Positions 1,986-38,789 of a DNA stretch of 58,100 bases are shown piece after piece. The stretch comes from Oscillospiraceae bacterium (GTDB taxonomy: Bacteria; Bacillota; Clostridia; Oscillospirales; Oscillospiraceae). Within the stretch, counting starts at the first letter, position 1; each line of letters opens with the position of its first letter. The stretch is from NCBI GenBank assembly GCA_017455685.1, contig JAFSZH010000020.1, forward strand, positions 1 to 58,100, read 5' to 3'. The position numbers were made by a program, and so were the translations under genes. The notes below the pieces were generated by a model. That model was given only the letters and a program-made list of their open reading frames with translations. It searched no databases and was not told the DNA's origin.

Positions 1986-3029
1986 TTATTCCCCGATATA
2001 CCAGAGACTTCCGGCATCGTACTTGGAGGGCAGCTCGATCCAATCGCCGTAGGAGGCCTCGATGTACCAGCCGGTCTCGTCGTGCTCCATCCAGCCGTAA
2101 TCGCCGTAATCGGAGGAGATGCCCTCATACCAGTACTGCCAGACAGGCGGGTCCATGTCCGTGTTGAGCCAGACCCAGCACTCGGTGGAGCTGTCGTAAT
2201 AGCTCTCGCTGTCCCGGTCCCAGACCAGCGTCTTGTCGGCGGCGCCGCCGGAGACGAATCTGTACTCGCCCTCCCCGGTCCGGGTCAGAACGACCCGATC
2301 GCCGAAGGCGGGGGCGACCTCGGTCACCCCGTAGGAAGACGAGCCGCCGGAGGAGGTGTGCTCCGAGCGCATGGAAATCCGGGCGAAAAGATACAGCACG
2401 ATCACCGTGATCAACAGTATGATCCAGAAGGTCTGCCATCCGGAGTGCTTCCGGGCGGCCGGCCGCGCGGTATCGGAAACAGCGGAGGAGGCGCGCAGCT
2501 CCTGGTCCAGCAAAGACTTGATCTCCATGGGCGCGCCGCAGTTGGGGCACTGGAGCGTTTTGGACGCCGCGTCCGCGCTCAGGTCCATGACCGTGTCCAG
2601 ACCGCAGTACTCGCAGTGGCACACCACGTTTTCGTACTTTCCGTCCTTCTCAAAAGCCACGTTGTCGTAGCGCTCGCCGTTTTCGTCGTAATAGCCCTGC
2701 TGATAGCTCTTGCCCGTGGAGCTGTCCACCCAGGCGACGGGATAGTATATGTATTCATGCCGGCGGCCGTAGTAGTAAGAGGGGCGGCGGCCGGTGCTGC
2801 CGGTGGAGAAAAAGCCGGTGGGCTGGTTCACCCGGGGCCTGGTCGGCGTGACCTGGGCCCGGGGCGCGGAGCTGTAGGACGAAGTCTTGGGCTTGCTGCT
2901 CCAGCTGGTGGAGGAATGGGAGCTGGGCCCCCGGGAGGACGAGCTGCTGTACGACCGGGAGCTGCTGAAGGAATGGGAGGAACTGGAATGGGAAGAGTGG
3001 GAGCTGTGGCTGTGTCCGCTGGGCGGCAT
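1986..3029 (-). CDS. Ser/His-rich protein with zinc ribbon and one membrane segment (unknown function)
   Basis: A 347-residue protein I cannot assign. Residues 1-55 are almost only Ser, His and Arg. A Tyr-rich stretch follows (about 80-115), then a zinc ribbon with two Cys pairs (CEYC near 138 and CPNC near 161). One hydrophobic helix (WIILLITVIVLYLF) lies near 205-220. The C-terminal ~120 residues are rich in Trp, Tyr and Asp. The ribbon comes before the helix and there is no signal peptide, so the N-terminal half is probably cytoplasmic and the acidic aromatic tail outside; topology is inferred. AGGAGGTG precedes the ATG and a TTGAAG-N17-TATAAT promoter lies upstream. Confidence 0.7.
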   Translation of the reverse strand: MPPSGHSHSSHSSHSSSSHSFSSSRSYSSSSSRGPSSHSSTSWSSKPKTSSYSSAPRAQVTPTRPRVNQPTGFFSTGSTGRRPSYYYGRRHEYIYYPVAWVDSSTGKSYQQGYYDENGERYDNVAFEKDGKYENVVCHCEYCGLDTVMDLSADAASKTLQCPNCGAPMEIKSLLDQELRASSAVSDTARPAARKHSGWQTFWIILLITVIVLYLFARISMRSEHTSSGGSSSYGVTEVAPAFGDRVVLTRTGEGEYRFVSGGAADKTLVWDRDSESYYDSSTECWVWLNTDMDPPVWQYWYEGISSDYGDYGWMEHDETGWYIEASYGDWIELPSKYDAGSLWYIGE

Positions 3030-23263: not shown

Positions 23264-23377
23264 AGGTCAAATAATGTTTTGTCGGATCAGGCTCCTGCGC
23301 GAGGGTTTTCCTCTCCTTTTCCGCCGAGAATCCTCCCCCGGGGATCATTCTGCATCAGAAGACGAGGTCATCAAAAA

Positions 23378-24256
23378 ATGCTGGATTCAAAAGAATATAG
23401 CCTTATATTGTCTCCCCGGCATCGTCTGTTTGATCTCCATCTTCAGGAGGCGTTCAGACACCGCGATCTTATTTTTCTTTTCGTCAAGCGCGACTTCGTT
23501 GCGGCGTACAAGCAGACCGTTTTCGGCCCGCTCTGGTTCTTCATCAATCCGATCCTGACGACACTGATCTTTACGGTCATATTCGGCGATCTCGCCGGGC
23601 TCCCCACCCTGGACGCCGCCGGCGGCGCCGCGATTCCCGGATTTCTCTTTTACATGGCCGGCAACATCTGCTGGGGGCTGTTTTCCAGTACTCTGACGTC
23701 CTCGTCCAACGCTTTCCGCAGCAACGCTGGGCTGATGAGCAAGGTCTATTACCCTCGGATCATCTCCCCCGTCGCCTCCGCTCTGTCCCATCTCATCACC
23801 TTCGGGCTGCAGCTGGCGATGTTTTTCGTCCTTTACGCCTTCGTTTTCTTCACCGGACGGGGGGAGCTGGTTTTTACCTGGCGGGTCCTTATGATCCCTT
23901 TGATCGCCCTGCAGATCATGTTCCTGTCCGTGGGCTGCGGGATCCTGATCTCCTCCGTCACCACCAAGTACAGAGACCTGAACATGCTGGTGGGGCTCTT
24001 CGTCCGTTTCTGGCAGTACGCCACGCCGATCATGTACGGTCTGTCTCTCGTTTCTGAAAAGAATTCACGGCTTTTGAAAGTCTATATGCTCAATCCCATG
24101 ACGCCGATCGTAACCTTTTTCCGCTATTCCGCTTTCGGCTCCGGGTATTTCAGCCTGGCGTACTACCTGATCAGTTGGGCCATCACCCTGGCGGTGCTGC
24201 TTTTGGGACTGATCATGTTCAGTCGGATCGAAAGATCCTTCGTCGATACGATCTGA
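23378..24256 (+). CDS. ABC-2 type polysaccharide/teichoic acid exporter permease (Wzm/TagG)
   Basis: A 292-residue membrane protein starting at ATG 23378, with GAGGT about 9 bases upstream; the open frame extends further up but without a ribosome site. It opens with the amphipathic FVKRDFVAAYKQTVFGPLWF typical of Wzm/TagG permeases, followed by about six helices. It forms the channel that moves a lipid-linked glycan across the membrane, powered by the ATPase encoded at 25220. An RgpF-family gene sits between the two exporter genes, which is unusual but keeps all three in one operon. Confidence 0.85.
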   Translation: MLDSKEYSLILSPRHRLFDLHLQEAFRHRDLIFLFVKRDFVAAYKQTVFGPLWFFINPILTTLIFTVIFGDLAGLPTLDAAGGAAIPGFLFYMAGNICWGLFSSTLTSSSNAFRSNAGLMSKVYYPRIISPVASALSHLITFGLQLAMFFVLYAFVFFTGRGELVFTWRVLMIPLIALQIMFLSVGCGILISSVTTKYRDLNMLVGLFVRFWQYATPIMYGLSLVSEKNSRLLKVYMLNPMTPIVTFFRYSAFGSGYFSLAYYLISWAITLAVLLLGLIMFSRIERSFVDTI

Positions 24257-24276
24257 TCGGGAAAGGAGGATTTCCC

Positions 24277-25257
24277 ATGCACAGATACACCATCCTGCCA
24301 AAAACGATCCAGGTCGCCGTTTCCGAAAAAACGCTCAAAGACGCCGCCGTGGTTGCCCACCTGTATTACGAAGAGCGCTTTGCCAACAGTTTTTCCTATC
24401 TGAAAAACGTCCCGCCGGAGGTCGACGTTTATATCGTCACGGCCAATCCTGCGCTGGAGGCGGCAGCCAGGGAGGCGATCCGGGAAGCAGGCTGCAAAAA
24501 CATCTCGATCATCACGAAGCCGAATCAGGGCCGTGATTTTGCCGCTCTGCTCATCGCCGCCAGGGAGGTCCTGGACAGCCACAGCTATATCGGTTTCATA
24601 CACGATAAGAGAAACCATCCCGGCGAGCCCAAGACCCTTACGGATATCTGGGAAAAATACCTGTTCGAGTGCGTCATCGGCTCCGGGGAATATATTTCCT
24701 GGATTCTCCATCGGTTCGAGAACGACCCGCGGCTGGGACTGTTTTCCGCGCCGACGCCCCCGATCGTCACGCTGCTGGGGCTGGCCGGCGTGCTCTGGAC
24801 GCACAATTATCTGCCCACGCTTCGCTTCCTCCGCAAGATCGGCGTAACGTACAGGCCGTGCCGACAAGACGATCCGCTCACCATCGGAAGCGCCTTTTGG
24901 TTCCGGACGAAAGCGTTTGAAAAGCTTCTCTCCTACCCCTGGACCTATGAGGACTTTCCTCCGGAGCCGATGCCGAACGATGGGACGATCGCCCATATCC
25001 TGGAACGGGCGATGGAGGCGATCTGCGTTGACGCCGGATATCGGGCGGGCTACGTGCTGAACGACAATTACGCCGAGGCGTTCATCACCCGGCGCAGCGA
25101 ACAGCTTACCACAGCCATGTGCATCATACGGGAAGCGGGACTGATGGTGTTTACCCGGGGCAATCTGGATCTGCCGCTGGCGCTGCAGAGGCTGCGGGAG
25201 AGAAGAATGGTAAAGCATAATGAACAAAAAGCCATTGACGGAACCTCCGATCATTAA
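24277..25257 (+). CDS. RgpF-family (rhamnan synthesis F) protein, short form
   Basis: A 326-residue protein starting behind AAAGGAGGA. It has the RgpF C-terminal domain pattern: VVAHLYYEERF, a VYIVTANPA strand, KPNQGRDFAALL, GFIHDKRN, then GSAFWFRTKAF and YEDFPPEPMPNDGTIAHILER. RgpF proteins are glycosyltransferases that extend rhamnose-glucose type polymers. This member has only one of the two domains of full RgpF and lacks the ~90-residue tail found in its paralogues at 27659 and 29066. Its last 38 bases overlap the wzt gene. Confidence 0.75.
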   Translation: MHRYTILPKTIQVAVSEKTLKDAAVVAHLYYEERFANSFSYLKNVPPEVDVYIVTANPALEAAAREAIREAGCKNISIITKPNQGRDFAALLIAAREVLDSHSYIGFIHDKRNHPGEPKTLTDIWEKYLFECVIGSGEYISWILHRFENDPRLGLFSAPTPPIVTLLGLAGVLWTHNYLPTLRFLRKIGVTYRPCRQDDPLTIGSAFWFRTKAFEKLLSYPWTYEDFPPEPMPNDGTIAHILERAMEAICVDAGYRAGYVLNDNYAEAFITRRSEQLTTAMCIIREAGLMVFTRGNLDLPLALQRLRERRMVKHNEQKAIDGTSDH

Positions 25258-26527
25258 AATCGACCACGTTTCAAAGGAATATCGTCTGGGTGCCATCGGC
25301 GGAACGACGCTGCGTGACGAGATGCGCCGCCGGAAGGCGGAACGCCGCCACGAAGCGGACCCCACGGCGCGCATCGGCTACACTGGCGGGGCCTATGGCG
25401 AGCGTTTTCTCGCCCTGGACGACGTGTCCTTTGAGATCCGCAAGGGCGAGCGCATCGGCATCATCGGCCATAACGGCGCCGGAAAGACGACGCTGCTGAA
25501 GCTGATCTCCCAGATTACCGCCCCCACGAAGGGAGAGATCGGCATCAACGGCCGCGTCGCCTCCATGCTGGAGGTGGGCACGGGGTTTCACGGCGAACTG
25601 ACAGGCCGGGAAAACGTCTATCTTAACGGGTCCATTCTGGGTATGTCCAAAAAGGAGATCGATGATAAGATCGAGCAGATCATTGATTTCTCCGAGATCC
25701 GTGAATTCATCGATACGCCCGTCAAGCGCTATTCCTCCGGCATGTTCGTCAAGCTCGCTTTTTCCGTGGCGGCGCACCTGGACGCCGAGATCCTCATCAT
25801 GGACGAGGTCCTGGCGGTGGGCGACGTGGATTTCCAGAAAAAATGCATCGCCAAGATCAAGGAGATCTCCTATTCCCGGCACCGCACCATCCTGTACGTC
25901 AGCCATAACATTGCCTCCATCCGTTCTCTGTGCAGCCGATGTGTGGTCCTGGAAAAAGGAAAACTGATCTACGACGGCGATGTGGAGCAGGCCATTTCCC
26001 TGTATACCGGGAAGCAAGGTCTTTCCCGGCAGGAGATCTCCTTCGGCTCCACGGACAGATCCTGCTTCGCCACGGACGGGAAAGTGCGGCTGCAGTCCCT
26101 GCGGTTTACGGACGACGTTTCCAGCTGTTTCGCATACGGCCAGACGATCCGGGCGGAACTCAGCTTCCTTGCCGAGGGCACGCTGAAGAACCTGTTTTTC
26201 CGGCTTCCGGTGTTTACGGACAGCGGAACGCGCGTCGGGACGATCCATACGCAGATCCTCCCCTGCGTCGTGCCGGGTTCCCATCGGCTGATGCTCACTT
26301 TCTCTTTCGAGCAGCTCCTCCCCGGAAAGTACTCTTTCTGGATCATCGCCCGGTCCGATTCCCTGGCGGATCCGGCGTACGACCACGACGTCGTTGCCAA
26401 CGCCGTCGTATTCGAGATCACTGCGCCCGACTCGACACCCCTGCTTCCCGGCGGCTACTATGCCGGATGGGGACCGATCCTGTTCCCGGAGGCGGCAGCG
26501 GAGGATTTCGCAGATGAAAAAATATGA
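25220..26527 (+). CDS. Polysaccharide ABC transporter ATP-binding protein with Wzt C-terminal domain
   Basis: A 435-residue protein. Walker A GHNGAGKT is at 83-90, the signature YSSGM at 171-175, and Walker B ILIMDE at 191-196. Residues about 275-425 form an extra beta-rich Wzt_C domain (ISFGSTDRSCF to VFEIT). In Wzt proteins that domain binds the finished chain end, so it sets which glycan is exported and when growth stops. It partners the permease at 23378. It starts inside the end of the RgpF-family gene and overlaps glf by 14 bases. Confidence 0.88.
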   Translation: MNKKPLTEPPIIKIDHVSKEYRLGAIGGTTLRDEMRRRKAERRHEADPTARIGYTGGAYGERFLALDDVSFEIRKGERIGIIGHNGAGKTTLLKLISQITAPTKGEIGINGRVASMLEVGTGFHGELTGRENVYLNGSILGMSKKEIDDKIEQIIDFSEIREFIDTPVKRYSSGMFVKLAFSVAAHLDAEILIMDEVLAVGDVDFQKKCIAKIKEISYSRHRTILYVSHNIASIRSLCSRCVVLEKGKLIYDGDVEQAISLYTGKQGLSRQEISFGSTDRSCFATDGKVRLQSLRFTDDVSSCFAYGQTIRAELSFLAEGTLKNLFFRLPVFTDSGTRVGTIHTQILPCVVPGSHRLMLTFSFEQLLPGKYSFWIIARSDSLADPAYDHDVVANAVVFEITAPDSTPLLPGGYYAGWGPILFPEAAAEDFADEKI

Positions 26528-27638
26528 TTACCTGGTCGTGGGAGCCGGCCTCTTCGGCGCCGTGTTTGCCCATGAAGCGGTGACGCGGGGCAAATCCGTG
26601 CTCGTGCTTGAAAAAAGGGCCAACCCGGGCGGAAACGCGTATACGGAAGAACAGGACGGCATCCGGATCCATGCGTACGGAGCGCATATTTTCCATACGG
26701 ACGACGCCTCCATCTGGGAATACGTCCAGCGCTTCGGCGCCTTTCTCCCATACGTCCACTCCCCCGCGGCCAATTTCCGCGGACGTTTGTACTCGCTGCC
26801 CTTTTCCATGAGGACGTTCCGGCAGGTCTGGGGCGTTTCGGATCCCACCGAGGCCAGACAGATCATAGAACGCCAGCGAAAGGAATGCGGCGTCGAAGTC
26901 CCCCGCAACCTGGAGGAACAGGCGATATGCCTGGTGGGAAAGGATCTGTACGAGACCCTCATCAAGGGATATTCGGAGAAGCAGTGGGGACGGCCGTGCA
27001 GCCAGCTGCCGCCCGAGCTCATAAGACGTATCCCTCTGCGCTTTACGGATGACGCCAATTATTTTGACGATCCCTATCAGGGGATCCCGCAAGACGGCTA
27101 TACCGCCCTGGTTTGGCGCATGCTCTCCGGCGCCGAGGTCCGGCTGGAAACAGACTATCTTGCTCAAAAGGAAGTCTGGGACGAGCTGGCCGACCGGATC
27201 ATCTACACCGGGCCCATCGACGCCTATTACGGTTACGCCCTGGGCGCTCTGGCCTACCGCACCCTTGCCTTTTCCCGGGAAACGATCACCCTGCCCGATT
27301 TTCAGGGTCGCGCCGTGGTCAACTATACCGATACGGAAACGCCCTTTACCCGTATCATCGAGCACAAGTGGTTTACCGGCGGCAAAAGCGTCGACGGCCG
27401 GGATCTGCCGTATACGATCATCACGAAGGAATACAGCCGGGAATGGCGTCCCGGCGACGAGCCATATTATCCGGTCAACGATGCGGAAAACACGGCGCGT
27501 CTGCAGGCTTATCAAAAACTGGCGGGAGCGGAAAGCCGGGTCTTTTTCGGAGGCCGTCTGGGTGAATACCGCTACTACGATATGGACGACACGATCACCT
27601 CGGCGCTCAAGCTCAGCCGAAAACTTCTCGAGCCATAA
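26514..27638 (+). CDS. glf: UDP-galactopyranose mutase
   Basis: A 374-residue flavoenzyme, the standard Glf length. It starts at ATG 26514 behind GGAGGA; the FAD-binding VVGAGLFG begins at residue 8. Typical Glf stretches follow: NPGGNAYTEEQDGIRIHAYG, HIFHT, GYSEKQWG and EYRYYDMDD. It converts UDP-Galp to UDP-Galf, using reduced FAD, so the exported glycan probably contains galactofuranose. The 14-base overlap with wzt ties it to the exporter genes. Confidence 0.92.
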   Translation: MKKYDYLVVGAGLFGAVFAHEAVTRGKSVLVLEKRANPGGNAYTEEQDGIRIHAYGAHIFHTDDASIWEYVQRFGAFLPYVHSPAANFRGRLYSLPFSMRTFRQVWGVSDPTEARQIIERQRKECGVEVPRNLEEQAICLVGKDLYETLIKGYSEKQWGRPCSQLPPELIRRIPLRFTDDANYFDDPYQGIPQDGYTALVWRMLSGAEVRLETDYLAQKEVWDELADRIIYTGPIDAYYGYALGALAYRTLAFSRETITLPDFQGRAVVNYTDTETPFTRIIEHKWFTGGKSVDGRDLPYTIITKEYSREWRPGDEPYYPVNDAENTARLQAYQKLAGAESRVFFGGRLGEYRYYDMDDTITSALKLSRKLLEP

Positions 27639-27658: not shown

Positions 27659-28885
27659 ATGGAAATCGATTACAAGATCCTCCCCCAGGAGCATTTTCTC
27701 GGTACGGACGCCCCGGACGTCCTGCGCCGCACTGCGGTGATTGCCCATTTGTACTACGAAGAACTGTTTGACAACAGCGCGGCGTATCTCCGGAACATCC
27801 CCCGGGAGGTCGACGCCTATATCGTCACCGCCAATCCAGCGCTGGAAGCCCTGGCGCTGCAGACCATAGAACGGGAACACTGGACGAATTTTCAGGTGAT
27901 CTCCAAGCCCAACCGGGGCCGGGATTACGCCGCACTTCTCGTCAGCTGCGGGGAGATCCTGCCCAGGTATTCCTACGTCTGTTTCGTCCACGACAAGAAA
28001 AGCCAGTCGGGCAACGTCCCGGAACTGGGCGAGCTCTGGCAGAAGTGCATTTTCGAATCCATGCTGGCCAGCGAAAACTATATCCGCAACGTGATCAACG
28101 CTTTTGAATCCGATCCTCAGCTCGGCGTCCTGTCCGCTCCGCTGTCGCCGGAGCCGTATCTCCTCAGCGTGGAAGGATACCTGTGGATGGTCAATTATGC
28201 TGCGTGCGCCGCGTTCCTGAAAAAACTCGGCCTGAAGAAGATCCCGCAGGAAAGCGACAATCCTCTCTTCGTCGGGTCCTCCTTCTGGTTCCGCACCGCG
28301 GCGCTCCGAAAGCTGATGGATCTGCCGCTGTCCTACGAGGATTTCCCGGAGGAGCCCATGCCGGTGGACGGAGCGTTCCCTCACGTGCTGGAGCGGTCCT
28401 ATGGCTTCATCGCGGAGGACGCCGGCTATCACTGCGCTTACGTGCTGCCATCCGGCTACGCCCAATACTTCCTGTCCCAGAAAGCGAAAAACCTCTCCAA
28501 CGCCATGCAGGTGCTGCGCCTCGCCCACCTGATCGCCTTTTCCGACAATCAGGTGGATTTCAACCGCATGCTGGCGGTATGCCGGGCCATGCCGAGCTTC
28601 GACGTTTCGTCCCGCTTCGGCCCCCATCGCTATCAGCGGGTGTTCATCTTTACGGAACCCGGTTACGAGGAGGCCGCCGAAGAGTGCCGGAAGCGGCTGG
28701 AGGACGACAAAGTGATGGTCGGCGGCGTGAATCTGTCGCCTGTGATCGATCGGGCGACCCTCCTGAAACCGACCAATGGCTTTCTCCTCTGCACCTCGGA
28801 GCAGGGAGAAGCGCCCTTTATCGAAATGATGCACCGCTACGGCAGAGACGACTATTTCCGTGCGTACGATCTGCTCGGCCGATAA
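27659..28885 (+). CDS. RgpF-family protein, copy A
   Basis: A 408-residue protein with the RgpF C-terminal-type domain (HLYYEELFDN, YIVTANPALE, KPNRGRDYAALL, CFVHDKKS, GSSFWFRTAAL, YEDFPEEPMPVDG). A ~90-residue tail begins at RVFIFTEPGYEE and ends at YGRDDYFRAY. It is a close paralogue of the gene at 29066, including the first ten codons. Probable glycosyltransferase for the surface polymer; donor and linkage are unknown. The space behind it contains a decayed DUF4422 gene end. Confidence 0.75.
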   Translation: MEIDYKILPQEHFLGTDAPDVLRRTAVIAHLYYEELFDNSAAYLRNIPREVDAYIVTANPALEALALQTIEREHWTNFQVISKPNRGRDYAALLVSCGEILPRYSYVCFVHDKKSQSGNVPELGELWQKCIFESMLASENYIRNVINAFESDPQLGVLSAPLSPEPYLLSVEGYLWMVNYAACAAFLKKLGLKKIPQESDNPLFVGSSFWFRTAALRKLMDLPLSYEDFPEEPMPVDGAFPHVLERSYGFIAEDAGYHCAYVLPSGYAQYFLSQKAKNLSNAMQVLRLAHLIAFSDNQVDFNRMLAVCRAMPSFDVSSRFGPHRYQRVFIFTEPGYEEAAEECRKRLEDDKVMVGGVNLSPVIDRATLLKPTNGFLLCTSEQGEAPFIEMMHRYGRDDYFRAYDLLGR

Positions 28886-28929
28886 GACGGCGCCCAGCTG
28901 CACCCGTACGACATAAGGATATGCCGAAA

Positions 28930-28990
28930 GTGGCTCGTTTACGTTCGGGTGCTTTCATAAAGCTCTCCGCCGCAGAACTTCCCGCGTATC
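28930..28990 (+). pseudogene. Relic of a DUF4422 gene end
   Basis: Bases 28948-28983 match the 3' end of the intact DUF4422 gene (30955-30992) almost exactly, with one inserted base, two deleted bases and two substitutions. Read in one frame the relic still gives KLSAAELP, next to GLSVAELP in the intact protein. The reading frame is broken and nothing else of the gene is recognisable. It marks an old RgpF-DUF4422 module duplication. Confidence 0.7.
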
Positions 28991-29065
28991 AAAAACAGGG
29001 TTGTAAGCGCTTCCCCCCAGAGACTTCCGTTCGTTTTTCCAACCGAAGCATAAAAGAGGTTTTTT

Positions 29066-30286
29066 ATGGAAATCGATTACAAGATCCTGCCCCAAGATTA
29101 TACGGTCAACAAGGATATCACGGACGCTCTCGGCAAAACGGCAGTAATCATCCATCTGTACTACGACGATCTGTTTGAGGACAACCTGAAATATCTTCGG
29201 AACATTCCCGGAGAGATCGACGCCTATATCGTCACCGCCAACAGAAAGCTCGCGTCCATGGCCCGGGAAATCATCCGGCAGGAGTGCCGGACAAACTTCC
29301 GGGTGATCTCCAAGCCTAACCGGGGCCGGGATTATGGCGCGCTTCTCGTCACCTGCGCGGAGATCCTGCCCAAGTACTCCTACGTATGCTTCGTCCATGA
29401 CAAGAAGAGCCGCCCGGAAGACGATCCGGTGCTGGGACAGACGTGGCAGACCTGCCTTTTTGAGTGCACTTTGGCCAGCGGCGACTATATCCGCAACGTG
29501 GTCAACGCCTTTGAGGAAGATCCCCGGCTGGGCTTTCTCTCCTCTCCGATGTCGCCGGAGTCCACGCTTCTCAGTGTGGACGGCGCCCTCTGGACAGCCA
29601 ATTATCTTGCCTGTGCTTCGTTCCTCAAAAAGCTGGGAGTGCAAAAAATTCCCCCCGTCAGTGAGGAACCGCTCTACGTGGGATCCGCCTTCTGGCTGCG
29701 TACCGCCGCGATCCAAAAGCTTCTGGCGTTCTCTTTTTCCTATGAGGATTTCCCTGCTGAGCCCATGCCGGAGGATGGGACCATCGCCCATGTGCTGGAG
29801 AGAGCCATCGGATTCGTGGCAGAGGACGCAGGATACAGTACCGCCTTCGTCATGTCGGTGCCATACAGCCGGTATTTCCTGACCCAGAAAACAAAGCACC
29901 TCACCAAAGCCATGCAGGTGCTGCGCGCCGCCAAAATGATCGCCTATACCGACAACCGGGTCGATTTCGACCGAATGCTGGCAATAACCCGTAAGGAAAC
30001 GGGGCTCAGCGATCTGACGCTTTTCGCGGTCCGATACATGCGGGTATTCATTCTCTCGGAGAGCGGCTGTGAGGAAGCCGTCGCAGCGTGCCGGGAGAGG
30101 CTGGAAAAAGACGGGGTGATCCCCGGCGGCGTGTACCTGTCCCCTGCGATCGATCAGGTGACCCTTCTGAACCCGACCAACGGCTTTCTTCTCTGCGCCT
30201 CGGAGCAGGGAGAAGCGTCCTATATCGAACTGCTGAACCGTCACGGAAGAGACGACTATTTCCGTGCGGACATGATAACCGAGTGA
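29066..30286 (+). CDS. RgpF-family protein, copy B
   Basis: A 406-residue paralogue of the 27659 gene, starting behind AGAGG with the same opening codons (MEIDYKILPQ). Domain pattern: IIHLYYDDLFEDN, YIVTANRK, KPNRGRDYGALL, CFVHDKKS, GSAFWLRTAAI, YEDFPAEPMPEDGTIAHVLER, and the tail ending GRDDYFRAD. Probable glycosyltransferase. The two copies differ throughout, so the duplication is not recent and they may use different acceptors. Confidence 0.75.
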   Translation: MEIDYKILPQDYTVNKDITDALGKTAVIIHLYYDDLFEDNLKYLRNIPGEIDAYIVTANRKLASMAREIIRQECRTNFRVISKPNRGRDYGALLVTCAEILPKYSYVCFVHDKKSRPEDDPVLGQTWQTCLFECTLASGDYIRNVVNAFEEDPRLGFLSSPMSPESTLLSVDGALWTANYLACASFLKKLGVQKIPPVSEEPLYVGSAFWLRTAAIQKLLAFSFSYEDFPAEPMPEDGTIAHVLERAIGFVAEDAGYSTAFVMSVPYSRYFLTQKTKHLTKAMQVLRAAKMIAYTDNRVDFDRMLAITRKETGLSDLTLFAVRYMRVFILSESGCEEAVAACRERLEKDGVIPGGVYLSPAIDQVTLLNPTNGFLLCASEQGEASYIELLNRHGRDDYFRADMITE

Positions 30287-30320: not shown

Positions 30321-31010
30321 ATGATCTATATCCTTACCCACAGAGGAGTGACCCAATCGATCGCCGAGCTCACACCCCAACGTGTGCTGCACGTGGGGCT
30401 TGGGCCCTCGGATTCTCCCAAATTCCTCTCCGACGCCGTCGGGGATTCCATTGCGGAGAAAAACCCCTATTACTGCGAGCTCACCGGGATCTACTGGCTG
30501 TGGAAAAACGCCTCCGATCAGGCGGATGAGCTGATCGGCATTGACCAGTACCGCCGGTTTTTCCTGCTCCGGCCTTTGACCCATCTAAATGAAAAGCGCG
30601 CCCTGGAAGCCATCGCCGGAAAGGATATCATCCTGCCGGAACGGCTGTATTTCTCTGAAAGAAGCGTCCGGGAGCAGTATGAGATCTGGCACCGGAAAGA
30701 GGATCTCGACAAACTGGAGGCGCTGCTGACGGAGCTCCATCCCGAGGTCATGCCCGCTTTTGCCGAGGTGATGGAGCGCAGCTGGCTGCACCCCTACAAC
30801 ATGATGGTCTGCCGGAAAAAGCTGTTCGACGAATACTGCGCCTGGCTCTTCCCGATCCTGTTCGCGCTGGAGAAGGAGATCGACGCCCCTGCCATAGATG
30901 ACCCCTATCAGAAGCGTGTCTTCGGCTTCCTGGCCGAGCGGCTCCTCAACGTCTGGGTGCTTTATAAAGGGCTCTCCGTCGCGGAACTTCCCATACACCT
31001 GGAGGGATGA
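30321..31010 (+). CDS. DUF4422 capsular-polysaccharide glycosyltransferase-like protein
   Basis: A 229-residue protein with the DUF4422 hallmarks: NPYYCELTGIYWLWKN near 53-68, IGIDQYRRFF near 74-83, then DIILPERLYFSE and LHPYNMMVCRKKLFDEYCAWLF. The family is common in capsule and exopolysaccharide loci and is regarded as glycosyltransferase-like. The usual GxHYRRYF reads GIDQYRRFF here (His replaced by Gln). It starts behind GGAGG. A degenerate copy of its 3' end lies at 28930-28990. Confidence 0.8.
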   Translation: MIYILTHRGVTQSIAELTPQRVLHVGLGPSDSPKFLSDAVGDSIAEKNPYYCELTGIYWLWKNASDQADELIGIDQYRRFFLLRPLTHLNEKRALEAIAGKDIILPERLYFSERSVREQYEIWHRKEDLDKLEALLTELHPEVMPAFAEVMERSWLHPYNMMVCRKKLFDEYCAWLFPILFALEKEIDAPAIDDPYQKRVFGFLAERLLNVWVLYKGLSVAELPIHLEG

Positions 31011-31017
31011 CTGTTTC

Positions 31018-33132
31018 ATGAACACTGTCGAACTGACCGTCCGCGAGCTGCTGCGGCACGCCGACGGCGTCGATGAAAAAAGGATCCTTGTTCTCCGCCC
31101 GGACGAGAGCGTGCCCGGGGACGGCGCGCCGTACAACGCCGTCGTATGTGTCGGCTGTCTGGAGACGCAGGCCGATCCCTCCCGTTATCTGTCGGAGGCC
31201 GGAAAGCTGCTGGTGGAGGGCGGGCAGCTCTTTGTGTTTGCCGACAATCGCCTGGGGCTCAAATACTTTTCCGGGGAACTGGACCCCTTTACCAACGGGT
31301 TCGGCAACGGCCCGGAGGGGTATAACCACGTTTACACGCCGAAGGGCCGCTGCTATGCACTGGAGGAACTGAAGGGCTTTCTCGCGGAGGCGGGATTCCC
31401 CCGGGTGAGGGCCTATTCCCTTCTGCCCGGTGCGGAGGCCCCCCGGTTCGTGATCGCGGAGGATTTCCGGCCGTCAGAACGGATGTCCATTCGCTATACG
31501 CCTGAGTACCGGAGCCCGGATACAGTTTTTCTGGAAGAGGAGTACGTCATCGACTCCCTCCTTGCCAACCGGCTTCTGCCGGGGATGGCCGACGGTCTTC
31601 TGCTGGAGGCGGCCGCGGCGCCCTTTCCCGCCGCCGTGGAGGAGATCGTGTTTTCTTCCGACCGCCGGCGGGAGTACGCCATGCAGACCACGGTCCTGGC
31701 CAACGGCACGGTGGAGAAGCGTCCGCTGTACCCGGAGGGCTTCGGCCGCCCGGAGATGATGGCGGCCCATGAACGGATGCTGCGGGAACGGGGGATCCGG
31801 ACCGTTCGAAGCTCCGTACGATCCGATGGAGATACACCGGTCTACGTCACAGAATATACGGACGCGCCGCTGGCCAACGCTTATCTGCAGGATCTTCTGC
31901 TGCGGGACAAGGACACCTTCGTCCGGGAGATGGATCGGTTTCGCGAACAGATCCTCTCCGCCTCGGAGCTGCTTCCGGGGCCGGGTCATATCCAGAAAAC
32001 GGCTTTCCCCGACATGGTGCCGCTGAACTGCTTTGTGGTCGATGGAGAATACGTGTTCTTCGACCAGGAATTCAGCCGCGCCGATTACCCGGCCGACTCC
32101 ATCGTGGCGCGCTCCCTGCTGATCGTTTACGAGCTGGACTCCCGGAGGGAGCAGACGCTGCCCAGATCCTTCTTTTTCGAGCGTTACGGGCTGACGGAGG
32201 ATCTGGACCGGCTGCTGACGCTGGCCAGGGAATTCACGGACGAGCTCGCCGCTCCCGGCGGCGGGGAGACGGGAAAACCCCGAGATCCGGCCACTACCCA
32301 GTGCAACCGCCATCGGATGAACTACTCCGAGGAGCTGTTTGAAAAACTGACTTATAACCCGGTGGCCGGCCTGGAACACAAGGATCTGTATCTGTTCGGC
32401 ACCGGCCCGGCCGTATCGAAGTTCATCGAGATGTACCAGCGGGATTATGAGATCCGCGCCGTGCTCCTGCCCGTGCTGGAGCCGGACATTTCGGAATACG
32501 ACGGATATCCGGTGCTGTCGGTGACGATCCTGCGGGAGCTGGATCCCGGGGATTACCGCGTGGTCATATGTTCCCCCGATTACGACGCCATCCGGAGCCG
32601 TCTCGCGGAGCTGGGCACTGTGGACTGCGTCGTTTATCACCCGGGAAAAGTCTACCCCGGCCGGCAGGCGACAAAGCTGTACCAGCAGGAACGATCAGAA
32701 AAAAAGCCCTATCATATCGGCTACGTGGCCGGGGTGTTCGACCTGTATCACCTGGGACATCTGAAGCTGTTCCAGCGGGCCAAGGCGATGTGCGATTATC
32801 TGATCGTCGGCGTGGTGACCGACGCGGGCGTGCGGGACTTCAAGAAGACGGAGCCCTTCATCCCCTTTGAAGAACGGATCGAGATGGTGCGGGGCTGCCG
32901 GTACGTGGATGAAGCGGTGGAGATCCCCTATTTCCATCGGGGCACCATCGAAGCCTTTGAAAAGTATCACTTTGACGTGCAGTTTTCGGGCAGCGATTAC
33001 GCTCATGAGCCTCTCTGGCTCTATCACAAGGCCTGGCTGGAGGAGCGGGGCGCCGCTATGGTGTTTTTCCCATACACCGAGGGAACAAGCTCTTCCAAAA
33101 TCAAGGGTCTGATCGAGCGAAATCTCCTGTAA
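31018..33132 (+). CDS. Four-part fusion: methyltransferase-like, kinase-like, Rossmann-like and cytidylyltransferase domains
   Basis: A 704-residue protein. I start it at ATG 31018 behind GGAGGGA. Part 1 (1-150) looks like the second half of a class I methyltransferase (LLVEGGQLFVFADNRLGL, LKGFLAEAGF) but lacks the glycine-rich SAM loop. Part 2 (about 170-400) is aminoglycoside-phosphotransferase-like, with DMVPLNCFV and FFDQEF in place of the HxDxxxxN and DFG-type motifs. Part 3 (about 450-555) starts KDLYLFGTGPAVSKFIEMYQ, like the N-terminal Rossmann unit of PglD-type proteins. Part 4 (560-704) is a TagD-type cytidylyltransferase with HLGH at 578-581 and GTSSSKIKGLI. The last part should make a CDP-activated alcohol such as CDP-glycerol. 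The other functions are inferred from fold-like motifs. Confidence 0.7.
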   Translation: MNTVELTVRELLRHADGVDEKRILVLRPDESVPGDGAPYNAVVCVGCLETQADPSRYLSEAGKLLVEGGQLFVFADNRLGLKYFSGELDPFTNGFGNGPEGYNHVYTPKGRCYALEELKGFLAEAGFPRVRAYSLLPGAEAPRFVIAEDFRPSERMSIRYTPEYRSPDTVFLEEEYVIDSLLANRLLPGMADGLLLEAAAAPFPAAVEEIVFSSDRRREYAMQTTVLANGTVEKRPLYPEGFGRPEMMAAHERMLRERGIRTVRSSVRSDGDTPVYVTEYTDAPLANAYLQDLLLRDKDTFVREMDRFREQILSASELLPGPGHIQKTAFPDMVPLNCFVVDGEYVFFDQEFSRADYPADSIVARSLLIVYELDSRREQTLPRSFFFERYGLTEDLDRLLTLAREFTDELAAPGGGETGKPRDPATTQCNRHRMNYSEELFEKLTYNPVAGLEHKDLYLFGTGPAVSKFIEMYQRDYEIRAVLLPVLEPDISEYDGYPVLSVTILRELDPGDYRVVICSPDYDAIRSRLAELGTVDCVVYHPGKVYPGRQATKLYQQERSEKKPYHIGYVAGVFDLYHLGHLKLFQRAKAMCDYLIVGVVTDAGVRDFKKTEPFIPFEERIEMVRGCRYVDEAVEIPYFHRGTIEAFEKYHFDVQFSGSDYAHEPLWLYHKAWLEERGAAMVFFPYTEGTSSSKIKGLIERNLL

Positions 33133-33156: not shown

Positions 33157-34152
33157 ATGAACAAAACTCTCGTCAATCAAAGATTCAGCACGGAGCTGCT
33201 CCGTGTCCTGGGCATGTCTATTGTATTCCTTTCCCACTTTCTGGACACTGTGCGTATGCCCCGGGGGGCTTGGTTCACCATCTTTCACGCCGCAGGTCCC
33301 CAACTGTTCTTTGCTCTGTCCGGGTACTGCCTTTCCCTGCGCTATCGGGAGCTGCCCTCATGGAAGGACTATTATCGAAGCCGTTTTCTGGCGCTGATGC
33401 CGCTGTACTACCTGACCTTTCTCCTGTTTTATCCCATACAGGCTTTCCTCTATGGCAATCCGTTTTACGGCGGCCCTTTCTGGAAGCTGGTTTTCACGTT
33501 GACCGCCAGCGATATGTACGTTACATTCTTTTATATCCCTACATACGCGGTGATCGGAGAATGGTTTTCCTTTATCATCCTGCTGCTGTATGCGGCGTTC
33601 CCGCTGCTTCGGCGGCTGATGCAGCGGCACAGTCTCCTTACGTCCGCCGTCATCCTCGCCGGGTTTCTGGCAAACTGGAAATTCCGCTTCATTCCCATCA
33701 CCCCGGAGGCCTCTCCTTTTACCGGTCTGCTGTCTTTCTGGGGCGGCATGATGGCGCAGAAGTACATGCCGCTGATGGAGAAGCGCCGGGGTGTGAGCGC
33801 GCCGCTGTGCGCCGCGGTCTGCGTGGGAATCTTTCTGGCGCCGTGTCCTAAATTCTTCTGCGCTTTGGCGCTGGCCGTGTTCGGCATGACCTTCCTTCTG
33901 CTGATCCTGCCGAAGGAATCCCCCCTCGGAACGCCCGTTCTCCGGTTCCTGGCAGGGAACAGCTACAGTTTTTACCTTTGTCATCATTTTCTGATCCTGC
34001 GGGCAGCTGCGCTGGGCGGCCCCCTGTGCGCGTCCCGCCCGGGTATGCTGGCGTTGTGCGCGATCACCGCTGCCATTTCGCTGCTCTGCGCCTGGTGCAT
34101 CAATCAGCTATACGCATTTTTAATAAGAAGGGTGAGAAGTAATCATGCTTAA
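33157..34152 (+). CDS. Acyltransferase 3 family membrane protein
   Basis: A 331-residue protein with about ten membrane helices. The family opening is visible (STELLRVLGMSIVFLSHFLD, with His in helix 1), followed by AAGPQLFFALSGYCLSLRYRE and RSRFLALMPLYYLTF. These proteins transfer acetyl or other acyl groups across the membrane to sugars of the surface glycan. It is more distant from the other two acyltransferases of the locus (35824, 36884), which are a pair. Its last 8 bases overlap the next RgpF gene. Confidence 0.8.
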   Translation: MNKTLVNQRFSTELLRVLGMSIVFLSHFLDTVRMPRGAWFTIFHAAGPQLFFALSGYCLSLRYRELPSWKDYYRSRFLALMPLYYLTFLLFYPIQAFLYGNPFYGGPFWKLVFTLTASDMYVTFFYIPTYAVIGEWFSFIILLLYAAFPLLRRLMQRHSLLTSAVILAGFLANWKFRFIPITPEASPFTGLLSFWGGMMAQKYMPLMEKRRGVSAPLCAAVCVGIFLAPCPKFFCALALAVFGMTFLLLILPKESPLGTPVLRFLAGNSYSFYLCHHFLILRAAALGGPLCASRPGMLALCAITAAISLLCAWCINQLYAFLIRRVRSNHA

Positions 34153-35827
34153 GATCCTCCCGAAGGACAGGTTGGCTATTTTCTTTTTCTACGACGCACA
34201 GGGTATCGCGGATCCCTACGTGATCGATTTAATCAAGGGGCTGAACACCATCGCCGGACGGCTGCTGGTGGTAGTCAACGGGGAGCTCACCCCCCAGTCC
34301 GCCGAGGAGATCGCTCCTCTGGCTGACGAGATCTTCTGCCGGCCCAACGTGGGCTTCGACGCCTGGGCCTATAAAGACGCCTTCGAGCACATCGGCTGGG
34401 ATGAGCTGCGGAAATATAAAGAAGTCGTCTATTGCAACGCCACGGTCTACGGCCCCGTTTTCCCCTTTTCGGAAATGTTTGACCGGATGGCGGAGAAAGA
34501 GGATCTGGACTTCTGGGGGATCACCTTCCACCCGGATCTGATGACGAAGGACACCCTCAACCCCCTCGGCTACATACCGGAGCATATTCAGCATTATTTC
34601 GTCGTGTACCGCCAGAAATTTACCGCTGCCCCCGAGCTGAAGGACTACTGGGACCACCTCCCCCCGATCCGGAATTACGCGGAGACGGTCGGTCTCCACG
34701 AGACCGTTTTCACCAAGCATTTCGCAGATATGGGCTTCAAGTGGGACACCTATATCCGCTACGACCAGGCGGTGGAGTCCACCAACTATATCCTGATGTT
34801 CGAGCCGCTCAAGGCCATCACGAAGTACCGCAGCCCGGTCATCAAGCGGAAGATCTTTTTCCTGGATCCCAGGTTCACACTCATCAACTCTATGGGAGAG
34901 AGGATCCCCGCCCTGCTTGATTATCTCCGGGACAACAAGCTGTATGATACGGGTATCATTTACCGGAACATCATCCGGACCAGCAACCAGGCCGATTTCA
35001 TTGACGCCCTGAATTTCCGCTGCATCGTCCCTGAAAACGCGCGGCTGACAAAGAAGCCGGAAGCCGACTACGGCGCCCGCACGGCGCTGATCACCCTGCA
35101 GGACAGCTCGGAGGAGAGTCGGGCACGCGCCGAGGAGGCCGCCGCACACATGCCCCGGGGCGCTGAGATCATCCCTCTGACCAACGTTCCGGATAATACT
35201 GAGGAATTCTTTCAGCAACTGAAAAAAGCCGCCCGGGAGCGTGAGTTCGTCTGCGTGTGCAACTGCGCAGTCGTTGCCGAACGTCGTCACAGCACCTCGG
35301 GAAAGAGCCTGGCGACAAGCCAGATCCGGGCTCTGCTGGCAACGAGAAAAACCGTGTGCAATATTATTGACAGCTTTGACGCCCAGCCGTTCTATGGTCT
35401 GCTGGTTCCCATGTATCCTCTGACGCTGGAATTCGGCGCGCACTGGCACGACCGCTGGCAGGGCACTTACCAGGAGGTCCGCGCTCTGACGGAGGCGCTG
35501 GACATTTCCGTTCCGTTCTGCGAGGAAAAGTATCCCGCTGTCCCCTATTTTTCCTGCTTCTGGATGCGCTCCGCCGCGCTGCTGCCGCTTTTGTCCGACG
35601 AGTCCGCTCTGTCCCGTCTGGTCGGAGAGCCTATCTCCGTATTGCGGCGTATTTATCCGCTGGCAGTCCAGCGCTTCGGTTACTCTCCCGGATACGTCAC
35701 CACAGACCAACTGGCCGGACACCAGTTTTCCGCGCTGTTCTATTACGCGGAAAACCTCTCCCGGATCAACGTGTCGCTGGACTCCCTTGTTAAGAAGATC
35801 GCCGCAGAACAGGGAATAGAAATATGA
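34145..35827 (+). CDS. RgpF-type glycosyltransferase, full length
   Basis: A 560-residue protein, close to the ~580 residues of classical RgpF. The N-terminal half carries the RgpF transferase features (NVGFDAWAYKDAFEHIGWDE, VVYCNATVYGPVFPFSEMFD, DFWGIT). The C-terminal half repeats the domain found alone in the three shorter paralogues (GLLVPMYPLTLEFG, SCFWMRSAALLPLL). RgpF works late in rhamnose-glucose polysaccharide synthesis, probably adding the side-chain or terminal sugar. It overlaps the acyltransferase before it by 8 bases and the one after it by 4. Confidence 0.82.
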   Translation: MLKILPKDRLAIFFFYDAQGIADPYVIDLIKGLNTIAGRLLVVVNGELTPQSAEEIAPLADEIFCRPNVGFDAWAYKDAFEHIGWDELRKYKEVVYCNATVYGPVFPFSEMFDRMAEKEDLDFWGITFHPDLMTKDTLNPLGYIPEHIQHYFVVYRQKFTAAPELKDYWDHLPPIRNYAETVGLHETVFTKHFADMGFKWDTYIRYDQAVESTNYILMFEPLKAITKYRSPVIKRKIFFLDPRFTLINSMGERIPALLDYLRDNKLYDTGIIYRNIIRTSNQADFIDALNFRCIVPENARLTKKPEADYGARTALITLQDSSEESRARAEEAAAHMPRGAEIIPLTNVPDNTEEFFQQLKKAAREREFVCVCNCAVVAERRHSTSGKSLATSQIRALLATRKTVCNIIDSFDAQPFYGLLVPMYPLTLEFGAHWHDRWQGTYQEVRALTEALDISVPFCEEKYPAVPYFSCFWMRSAALLPLLSDESALSRLVGEPISVLRRIYPLAVQRFGYSPGYVTTDQLAGHQFSALFYYAENLSRINVSLDSLVKKIAAEQGIEI

Positions 35828-36894: not shown

Positions 36895-37975
36895 GCTTTC
36901 CTCCGGCAGCGTCCGCGCCTCAGAGCATCGCTATTCGCTGGATCTGCTCCGGTTCTTCATGGCCGTCGGCATCGCGATCTACCACTTCAACGGCGCGTTT
37001 CCCTTCCAGGTCCCCGCCCTCAACACCCTGATTTATAGCGGCGGGACCCTTCTGGCGGATCTGTTCTTTTTCCTTTCCGGCTGCGTGATGGCGCTTCGGG
37101 AAGAGCGTACCGCAGAGTCTTCCTTCCCTCGCTTCTTCCTCTCCCGGGCCCTGCGTGTTTTTCCGGTCTACTGGGTGGTGTTGTCGGTCCATGCGGTGAT
37201 CTGCGCACTGGGCGGAGAACCGATCGGCCTGGCGCGGTTCGTCTCCAATATGCTCCTGCTGCCCTATATCCTGGAGGATAAACGCGGCATAATCGACCCT
37301 CCCATGTGGTTTCTGGTCGTGCTGCTTCTGTGCTGGTGGCTCTTTTGGCTCATCCTGTTCTTTACCAGACGCCGGGGAAAAAACCCCGTTCCGGTGTATT
37401 TCCTCCTCCTTGTCGCAGGGCTGACAGCCAGACTGCAGATCGAGCCCTTTTCCGTGATCAGCGAGCCTATGACCCGCGGTATCGTCGGGTTTTTCGGCGG
37501 CTGCCTTCTGGCGCATCTTGACGGGGTTTTTCACGGGAAGAAGGCGGCGGTCACGGGCCTTGCCGTGCTGGTTTTCGTCGGGATCATCGCGCTCCTCTTC
37601 CCGGTCACGGCGGACAGCGGCTATATGATCTGCATTCTCCTTCTGTTCCCCGGTCTTCTGCTGTTCCTGCTCAACGGAAGCTTCCCGGAAAACCTCCTGC
37701 GAAACAGGTTCGTCAGGTTCCTGGGCGGAACGGCTTACGCCATTTTCGTGCTGAACGCGCCGGTTCTTTCATACGAGCATGGTATTATCGACGATGCTCT
37801 GTCGAGCGGAAATGGCAGCGTTTGGACGATGTTGCTGATCGATTTGGCCATCCTGGTGCTGCTGGCCGCGTTGGTCCACCGCTTCCTTGAAAGACCACTG
37901 ACTGTCTTTTTCACCAAAGCGGTCCAGAAGCTGGCAGCTGCCGGGAGAGCCGAAGGGGTGCGCCATGACAGCTGA
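36884..37975 (+). CDS. Acyltransferase 3 family membrane protein, tandem copy 2
   Basis: A 363-residue paralogue of the previous gene (YSLDLLRFFMAVGIAIYHFN, FFFLSGCVMALREER, SRALRVFPVYWVVL). ATG 36884 is preceded by AAGGAGG at the right distance; the upstream ATG at 36860 is not. Its start overlaps the previous stop by 11 bases, and its own end repeats the same 13-base junction with the LicD gene. Likely a second acyltransferase with a different target sugar or position. Confidence 0.82.
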   Translation: MTAELSSGSVRASEHRYSLDLLRFFMAVGIAIYHFNGAFPFQVPALNTLIYSGGTLLADLFFFLSGCVMALREERTAESSFPRFFLSRALRVFPVYWVVLSVHAVICALGGEPIGLARFVSNMLLLPYILEDKRGIIDPPMWFLVVLLLCWWLFWLILFFTRRRGKNPVPVYFLLLVAGLTARLQIEPFSVISEPMTRGIVGFFGGCLLAHLDGVFHGKKAAVTGLAVLVFVGIIALLFPVTADSGYMICILLLFPGLLLFLLNGSFPENLLRNRFVRFLGGTAYAIFVLNAPVLSYEHGIIDDALSSGNGSVWTMLLIDLAILVLLAALVHRFLERPLTVFFTKAVQKLAAAGRAEGVRHDS

Positions 37976-38789
37976 TTTCATCCCCGAGGGCTGCCGTCCT
38001 CTCAGCGAAGGGGAAAACAAACAGGTCCTTCTGGATATGCTGAAGTATATCCACGAGTTCTGCGTCCGGAACGAGATCCGTTACTTTATGTACTTTGGGA
38101 CCCTGCTGGGCGCCGTCCGTCATCACGGCTTCATCCCCTGGGACGATGACATGGACATCTGTATGCCGAGGCGGGATTATGAAAAATTCCTCCGCCTGTT
38201 CCCCCATGATGATTCGGGAAGGTATAAGGCGCTCTCGGGACAGGACCCGGGAAACTATACCACCTTTGCAAAGATCGTGGATACGAACACCGTGCTGATC
38301 GAACCGGGGCGTCCCCCCATCGGGATCAACATCGATCTGTTCCCCATCGATAACGAGGGACAGACCCTGCTGGGGGCAAAACTGTTTCTCCAGTTCGTCA
38401 ACGTTTTCATTTATCTTCGGCGATTCGCCGCCGGCCGCAAGCTCGGCAGGACGCCTTTCCGGCGGGCCGTTCGCGAAGTGCTTCACGTACTGCTGCGGGG
38501 CATCAGCGACCCTGTCTGGATCAAATGGACTGACGCGGTCAGCCGTCTGCGCCGGCGAAAGACTATGATGCGTTACGTTGGGGCCGTCAACGCCAGCGCG
38601 TACAACCCCCGGCAGATCCTGCGGGGGGAATGGTTTCAGGACGCGATCCTGCTGGATTTTGAAGACAGCCGGTTTTTCGCCCCCTGCGGGTACGCGAAGG
38701 TGCTGGAAACGATCTACGTAAACTATATGGATCTGCCCGCGGTGGAAAACCGGAAAGGCCGTCATGGCCTTCGGTGGATCAAAGCCTGA
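37965..38789 (+). CDS. LicD family phosphotransferase
   Basis: A 274-residue protein with the LicD core: RYFMYFGTLLGAVRHHGFIP followed by WDDDMDICMPRRDYEKF (about residues 42-77). The DDDMD cluster is the nucleotidyltransferase-fold metal site. LicD-type enzymes move a phosphoryl-linked group, classically phosphocholine, or a polyol phosphate, from a CDP-activated donor to a sugar. Together with the cytidylyltransferase fusion at 31018, this suggests the glycan carries a phosphodiester-linked substituent. The start overlaps the acyltransferase stop by 11 bases. Confidence 0.85.
   Translation: MTADFIPEGCRPLSEGENKQVLLDMLKYIHEFCVRNEIRYFMYFGTLLGAVRHHGFIPWDDDMDICMPRRDYEKFLRLFPHDDSGRYKALSGQDPGNYTTFAKIVDTNTVLIEPGRPPIGINIDLFPIDNEGQTLLGAKLFLQFVNVFIYLRRFAAGRKLGRTPFRRAVREVLHVLLRGISDPVWIKWTDAVSRLRRRKTMMRYVGAVNASAYNPRQILRGEWFQDAILLDFEDSRFFAPCGYAKVLETIYVNYMDLPAVENRKGRHGLRWIKA

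Follow-up and report, generated by a model that had tools for sequence, protein, structure and literature searches.

A 704-residue protein from an Oscillospiraceae bacterium joins a methyltransferase-like piece, a kinase-type piece, a Rossmann-type module and a TagD/ECT-type cytidylyltransferase in one reading frame. Its gene lies in a stretch of 58,100 nucleotides (the window; GenBank assembly GCA_017455685.1, contig JAFSZH010000020.1, positions 1 to 58,100 of the forward strand). Sequence comparisons lead us to consider it probable, with moderate confidence, that this protein adds a phosphate to a small alcohol or sugar, which it next activates with cytidine monophosphate (CMP) for a phosphotransferase. 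The middle domain would transfer a phosphate from adenosine triphosphate (ATP) to a hydroxyl of the alcohol or sugar, and the C-terminal domain would link that phosphate to CMP from cytidine triphosphate (CTP), yielding a cytidine diphosphate (CDP)-linked compound. An earlier note on this DNA had proposed the four-part frame, which is borne out and recurs in the same order in 21 fused proteins, and knew of no described enzyme with this order. Among the literature matches listed we likewise found no described kinase-cytidylyltransferase of this build, although the methyltransferase-kinase half does have a characterised relative. The features of the fusion are:

31018..33132, + strand: whole fusion protein, 704 residues plus stop in an uninterrupted frame, with 20 further fused proteins aligning
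31018..31512, + strand: methyltransferase-like piece, residues ~1-165, from sub-threshold Methyltransf_23/11/12 matches, a hidden Markov model (HMM) and motif comparison
31513..32352, + strand: kinase-type piece, residues ~166-445, from HMM matches to unfused proteins and conserved residues
32353..32697, + strand: Rossmann-type module, residues ~446-560, from PglD_N matches in relatives and occurrence of the same module elsewhere
32698..33129, + strand: TagD/ECT-type cytidylyltransferase, residues ~561-704, from PF01467 (1.1e-16) and H578, H581, K609, R620, D660 and T687

The fused family and its cytidylyltransferase domain

The frame is already open from 30898 (744 residues if started there), but we prefer the start at 31018, because GGAGG stands 12 nucleotides 5' of its ATG and the preceding DUF4422 gene ends at 31010. 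The motifs DMVPLNCFV (residues 332-340), FFDQEF (347-352), LYLFGTGPAVSKF (from 457) and HLGH (H578-L-G-H581) all lie where the earlier note had placed them. An assembly artefact or read-through is ruled out by the open frame and by recurrence across many genomes, since the same order returns in five named-genome loci and in further genomes. The five named-genome relatives, 36-47% identical, comprise one Treponema metagenome-assembled genome (MAG) and four Lachnospiraceae; two of the five loci, in Parablautia intestinalis D8-82 and in Lachnospiraceae XBB2008, come from genomes without a MAG label. A pattern-based search of one genome per species (84,980 species) returned five relatives in 26 candidate stretches, a count that is a lower bound. 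The full-length fusion occurred in 1/99 related genomes (the window itself), in at least 4/391 genomes of the class and 4/398 of a phylum sample (the window genome being counted in both), and in 14/295 genomes in the order of Parablautia; some genomes recurred between searches with identical coordinates (G337/G964, G124/G876, G275/G933). G337, listed as belonging to the class of the window genome, came back at identical coordinates in the Parablautia-order search, which places the window genome and Parablautia in one class.

At 90% identity the 21 fused proteins, including that of the window, form 18 clusters. A 40-row tree (midpoint root, for drawing only) places them on one side of a single branch with support 100/100. 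The alignment of fused and unfused rows held 38 proteins that span both the methyltransferase-like and kinase-type modules (profile start <120, end >450), with identical frames merged, so that the L003 gene is represented as L106 (L and G numbers are our handles for loci and genomes). Left out were frames holding just one of the two modules, the cut-off frame of L102, both L082 and L086 (end 440-441), and L007 (same gene as L101). Proteins were defined as fused by a pattern containing HxGH, and the 17 unfused rows hold no HxGH at all.

The C-terminal domain is, by its sequence, a TagD/ECT-type cytidylyltransferase, as previously suggested, and its relatives point to the use of CTP. It matches CTP_transf_like (PF01467) over residues 570-696 with 61.7 bits against a cut-off of 21, and is the sole domain of the fusion above its Pfam cut-off, three methyltransferase models falling under theirs; among the NCBIfam models listed, a generic adenylyl/cytidylyltransferase domain alone exceeded its cut-off. 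Active residues are retained rather than lost: H578, G580, H581, K609, R620, G658, D660, T687 and S692 are invariant in a six-row alignment (A1) whose rows were not selected by the HxGH motif alone. In 63 domains harvested by pattern, K609 is kept in 62, R620 in 63, D660 in 62 and T687 in 63; the invariance of HxGH in this set proves nothing, since it formed part of the search pattern. Among solved structures the nearest chains belong to ethanolamine-phosphate, glycerol-3-phosphate and choline-phosphate cytidylyltransferases, and the domain shares with TagD and the ethanolamine- and choline-phosphate enzymes PF01467, HxGH, the Lys, the Arg and a T-x-x-x-S-S signature. Unlike TagD-type enzymes, it is fused to a kinase-type domain. 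It also differs from TagD in having Tyr (Y686) at the Arg of RTEGISTT, a subfamily trait because Tyr or His stands there in 63/63 domains, stand-alone ones included. A further difference lies at position 661, occupied by Tyr in 20/20 distinct fused domains (L006 and L114 taken as fused); of 43 stand-alone domains, 38 have Trp there, 3 have Tyr and 2 have His, a hint that the substrate differs. Separately, two loci (L010:763-1920, L060:775-1926) carry a cytidylyltransferase of the same type behind an apparent short-chain dehydrogenase (by eye), with Tyr replacing Trp as in the kinase fusions.

Methyltransferase-like, kinase-type and Rossmann-type parts

The N-terminal piece is a methyltransferase relative that has lost its S-adenosylmethionine (SAM) loop, a claim of the earlier note upheld by motif comparison. 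An HMM built from the 21 fused N-terminal parts matches unfused proteins (best 5e-43). The strict SAM motif ExGxGxG is present in 0/21 fused versus 8/17 unfused rows, and at least two of the three SAM-motif glycines in 1/21 versus 13/17. Compared with the other fused proteins, that of the window lacks SAM motif I and ~35 following residues; in place of the E/DxGxGxG loop it reads RILVLRPDESV. Among unfused relatives, L127 has an altered form of the motif, and L129 has lost it.

We read the second part as a kinase-type domain on the strength of a chain of homology and of conserved residues. K234, D332, N337, D349 and E351 are invariant in A1, and the motif D/E-x4-N...D-x-E is kept in 21/21 fused and 14/17 unfused rows. 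An HMM of the 21 fused kinase parts matches unfused proteins from 9e-69, among them a stand-alone kinase-type gene in L075 (3e-16) as well as L082 and L086 (2-4e-6); because it extends slightly into the Rossmann module, some of its weakest matches stem from there. Neither this nor the methyltransferase HMM matched any of 488 reversed frames (E up to 0.1). The stand-alone L075 gene reads DIDLHPNNILI...IIDYEW, which we take as a plain kinase catalytic loop, and the motif series continues in L082 (IDCTPFN), L084 (FDVVPWN) and L061 (IDLLFGN). Pfam gives the L075 gene TCAD9 alone (0.0028, below cut-off) and the unfused relatives scanned no kinase model above cut-off; solved-structure searches likewise showed no kinase among the matches listed (in one search, the best 60 of 88). 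In L075 the methyltransferase and kinase modules are two overlapping genes (1279-2235 and 2223-3029).

The chain leads to ORF6 of the Klebsiella pneumoniae O7 system, described as an N-terminal methyltransferase, a domain of 223 residues that bears no annotation but is similar to the aminoglycoside kinase AmiN, and a coiled coil (PMC11231755). According to that description, ORF6 acts on the terminal rhamnose by phosphorylation followed by methylation, the D441A protein no longer phosphorylates, and the SAM-site residues are Y28, Y66, G91, G93, E112 and Y158 (PMC11231755). We judged homology to ORF6 through an O7-like Pseudomonas protein as its stand-in. This Pseudomonas asturiensis plasmid protein (WP_024686765.1, 1457 residues) adjoins an ABC (ATP-binding cassette) transporter, has two glycosyltransferase-2 stretches, and carries Y28, Y66, G91, G93, E112 and Y158 numbered exactly as in published ORF6, with the aspartate of IDAVPQN at 443. 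A kinase HMM from all 38 rows weakly reaches it and a second gammaproteobacterial plasmid protein, from Citrobacter (19 and 22 bits; 7e-8 and 1e-8 in a two-sequence search), and places the D332 column opposite D443. In L084, residue numbers are offset from those of ORF6 by 0, 0, 1, 1, 1, 1 and 9. These matches suggest that the phylum of the window holds many distant relatives of the O7-type kinase, which was proven in Klebsiella in 2024.

The kinase part is closely followed by the Rossmann-type module. PglD_N matches 2/6 members of A1 (best 3.8e-6), the window protein not being one of them. The module may be a shared docking or ligand-binding part. It occurs in 80/345 open reading frames searched from related islands, 19 of the 80 being fusions (loci L003-L006, L093-L098, L101, L136-L147), where it is added to LicD, DUF4422 proteins, TIM-barrel isomerase-like proteins, GT2, RgpF, Glyphos_transf and a cytidylyltransferase; it was absent from the 13 other window proteins searched.

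Gene neighbourhoods of fused and unfused forms

The fusion sits among genes for polysaccharide assembly and export:

23279..24256, + strand: ABC-2 exporter permease (PF01061, 2.1e-15)
24175-25257 and 34145-35827: further RgpF genes (PF05045)
25220..26527, + strand: exporter ATPase with Wzt C-terminal domain (PF00005; PF14524, 33.5 vs 30.4 bits)
26394..27638, + strand: UDP-galactopyranose mutase (PF03275, 2.4e-73)
27659..30286, + strand: RgpF-type genes at 27659-28885 and 29066-30286 (PF05045)
30321..31010, + strand: DUF4422 gene (Pfam), ending 8 bases before the fusion start
37965..38789, + strand: LicD phosphotransferase gene (PF04991, 2.2e-35)

The earlier note had placed a LicD enzyme about 5 kb downstream; the gene starts 4833 bases past the fusion stop, is the sole LicD match in the 72%-complete genome, and encodes the likely user of the CDP product. 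LicD lies within 6.7 kb in 6/6 exporter-type fused loci (window, L003-L006 and L140; called with Pfam for the window and with phmmer elsewhere), all of which have an ABC exporter adjacent or within 5 kb. A DUF4422-type gene directly 5' of the fusion is shared with L003, L004, L005, L094 and L095 (by Pfam in the window, L094 and L003; by phmmer in L004, L005 and L095). The 610-residue protein encoded after LicD (38817-40649) has no Pfam match at 0.001.

Across the family, LicD or Glyphos_transf was found in the examined stretch of 9/18 clusters, as LicD in the window, L003, L004, L005, L006, L140 and L143 and as Glyphos_transf in L097 (Pfam) and L141 (phmmer). Xylose-isomerase-like TIM-barrel genes, one or two, occur in the examined stretch of 10/18 clusters (called by homology to Pfam-confirmed members, one of the L094 pair by eye), and in 7 of these 10 a pair stands directly 3' of the fusion. 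This pair may make the substrate, and hints at a sugar-derived one in those loci; that of the window may differ. TIM-barrel pairs directly or just after the fusion or its split form were seen in L096, L097, L101, L093, L094, L139, L141 and L142. Flagellar genes also occur: flagellin genes lie near the fusion in L096, FliD and FliS in L136 (Pfam), and flagellar look-alikes in L137 and L138 (unscanned). The stretches of these four loci hold neither LicD nor Glyphos_transf; the L096 genome has LicD with a cytidylyltransferase on the same contig at a distance of ~23 kb. From these settings it seems that two or more kinds of glycan are served by the fused gene, as would be expected of an enzyme that makes donors rather than of one that ends chains.

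Unfused relatives outline how the fusion may have arisen. Methyltransferase and kinase parts without a cytidylyltransferase stand beside exporter-matching genes in L099, L100, L102 and L104. Four of the six nearest unfused tree rows (L040, L068, L101, L127, L129 and L134) lie near LicD or cytidylyltransferase genes. In L040, LicD adjoins and a cytidylyltransferase lies ~10 kb off on the same contig; the stretch of L068 has neither neighbour. In the split form (L101; G010), the methyltransferase-kinase gene overlaps a Rossmann-cytidylyltransferase gene. L146 (the L127 locus) and L147 (the L129 locus) hold an unfused kinase gene with LicD and a separate cytidylyltransferase; a GDPD gene in L146 (Pfam; a look-alike in L147) hints that the alcohol is freed there from a glycerophosphodiester, and the window's substrate may differ.

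A further family of ~720-850 residues (A3), with no Pfam match over cut-off, adjoins or lies near the fusion, or the unfused kinase in L146 (L093:11870-14416, L136:7216-9735, L138:11041-13563, L143:11254-13794, L146:10738-12909). A TagF-like transferase role for it was unsupported by Pfam, solved-structure search and hhalign, and a Paenibacillus plasmid relative carries no annotation.

Proposed mechanism, rival explanations and known systems

The comparisons establish the domain order, the homologies, the conserved residues, the missing SAM motif, the single clade of fusions and the gene neighbourhoods; from these we infer both activities, their order, the substrate class and the hand-over to LicD. 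This partly supports the earlier note, in which the compound phosphorylated and then activated for LicD might be a polyol or sugar alcohol. In the window and the other exporter-type loci, the LicD-type enzyme would pass the phospho-compound to a glycan, a task that would fall to a LicD- or TagF-type enzyme in some TIM-barrel-type loci. The N-terminal domain would be a dead methyltransferase retained as structure, and the Rossmann module probably has an accessory or docking role. The ancestor may have been a chain-terminator methyltransferase-kinase that phosphorylated a sugar and then methylated the phosphate; on its re-use, methylation of the phosphate would have been lost and nucleotidylation gained, along a path from terminator, through clustered partner of LicD and a cytidylyltransferase, to fusion. 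This suggests how a methyl-phosphate chain terminator can become a CMP-adding maker of activated donors. If this is correct, Clostridia and some other bacteria should contain a CDP-linked metabolite, and their capsules, perhaps their flagellins too, may bear phosphate decorations so far unrecognised; the family, named by Pfam and NCBIfam solely after its last domain, would also gain a function.

Several observations weigh against this proposal. Were the substrate glycerol-3-phosphate, as for TagD, a kinase would be unneeded. Half of the clusters (9/18, two on contigs <7 kb) show no LicD or Glyphos_transf in the examined stretch, among them loci where Pfam confirms flagellar genes. The strict SAM motif is also gone in 9/17 unfused rows, so its loss is not exclusive to the fusion, and L104 has lost the motif with no cytidylyltransferase match in its stretch, which does not fit a simple path. 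For the kinase, the window protein matches no Pfam kinase model, APH (PF01636) included, at E up to 10. Comparisons by hhalign with WbdD and with small APH sets are not significant, controls scoring alike; the catalytic loop alone aligns. The final set (9/14 rows, picked by an H-x-D-x4-N loop and frame length) gave 0.2% probability, and the first, also not significant, included frames such as L149 that do not correspond to the reported APH frames. Matches of the fused-kinase HMM do not include the kinase parts of L084 or L080, and in the Citrobacter protein (FEREW) the second aspartate is missing. The fused-only HMM does not reach the two gammaproteobacterial proteins, so that the link from the fusion to the proven kinase is only transitive. 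The APH-kinase-like piece of the earlier note therefore stands as far as conserved catalytic-type residues and transitive homology to the O7 kinase carry it, whereas the APH assignment itself found no Pfam match and no significant hhalign score.

The kinase might instead phosphorylate the non-reducing end of a growing polysaccharide, with CMP added to give either a CMP-phospho cap or a CDP-glycan for block transfer by LicD, a possibility we regard as unlikely. The window's exporter ATPase carries a Wzt_C domain, and domains of this type read the terminal cap in O9a-like systems. The idea also draws on the characterised O7 relative (PMC11231755) and on the analogous WbdD (PMC3482155), each described as phosphorylating a glycan end. 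Against it, the exporter ATPases of the other five exporter-type loci have 242-243 residues (the one scanned lacks Wzt_C), TIM-barrel and flagellar loci show no match to the window's exporter proteins, and some stand-alone cytidylyltransferase relatives adjoin LicD/TagF look-alikes (by eye, unscanned). A broader version, which we hold to be improbable, has the kinase act on the end sugar and the cytidylyltransferase produce CDP-capped glycans that serve as an export cap or as CDP-oligosaccharide block donors for LicD- or TagF-like enzymes onto polysaccharide or flagellin.

Treating the kinase part as a binding or structural relic, in a protein that makes CDP-glycerol or a similar donor for LicD from glycerol-3-phosphate or the like, would accord with the cytidylyltransferase being the best-preserved part, with its nearest solved relatives and with the decay of the methyltransferase. 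We nevertheless think it unlikely as well: the kinase motif is kept in 21/21 fused proteins despite that decay next door, and Tyr661 (20/20 fused, against Trp in 38/43 stand-alone domains) hints at a different substrate. Least probable to us is that a kinase acting on the glycan end and a separate synthesis of a CDP-alcohol are unrelated jobs merely co-located by fusion in one complex. The halves do occur as separate genes in related clusters (G010, G254, G1004, G1112), yet the methyltransferase, which would finish a cap, was lost together with the gain of the cytidylyltransferase.

Kinase-nucleotidyltransferase fusions of other build are already known. HldE is a heptose (sugar) kinase of PfkB type fused to an HxGH nucleotidyltransferase; the NCBIfam HldE model covers the C-terminal domain of our fusion alone (41.6 bits against a cut-off of 521). 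Treponema denticola has a LicC-LicA fusion (LicCA), a word absent among the literature matches listed. The proposed sequence of steps resembles the Lic1 pathway, in which an alcohol is described as being phosphorylated by the kinase LicA, CTP-activated by LicC and transferred by LicD (PMC10434233, PMC7368946), and a LicD gene shares the cluster with the fusion. It differs in that LicC is assigned to MobA-like NTP transferases (PMC6697681) and LicA is a choline kinase, neither type being found in the fusion.

O7 ORF6 (PMC11231755) shares with the window protein the order methyltransferase then kinase (related through intermediates, with a matching catalytic Asp) and an ABC-exporter polysaccharide context. 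Unlike ORF6, the window protein lacks a SAM loop, glycosyltransferase modules and, by eye, a coiled coil; its Rossmann-type module and cytidylyltransferase stand in their place. WbdD of E. coli O9/O9a, too, is reported as methyltransferase then kinase beside Wzm/Wzt (PMC3482155), and the O7 and WbdD kinases have been called distinct (PMC11231755). The WbdD kinase showed no detectable homology to the fusion kinase (hhalign probability <1%; a single WbdD sequence, E. coli HS, L105), which rules WbdD out as direct parent; its methyltransferase matched the unfused relatives weakly (17%). The Clostridioides difficile Type A flagellin glycan pathway (CD0241-CD0244) offers another parallel, with a proposed CDP-activated small molecule and TagF-like transfer to the flagellin glycan (PMC10714395). 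Its functions are described as lying on separate genes, with CD0242 resembling another nucleotidyl transferase type and the phosphate coming from a phosphatase-like enzyme rather than a kinase of the type found here (PMC10714395).

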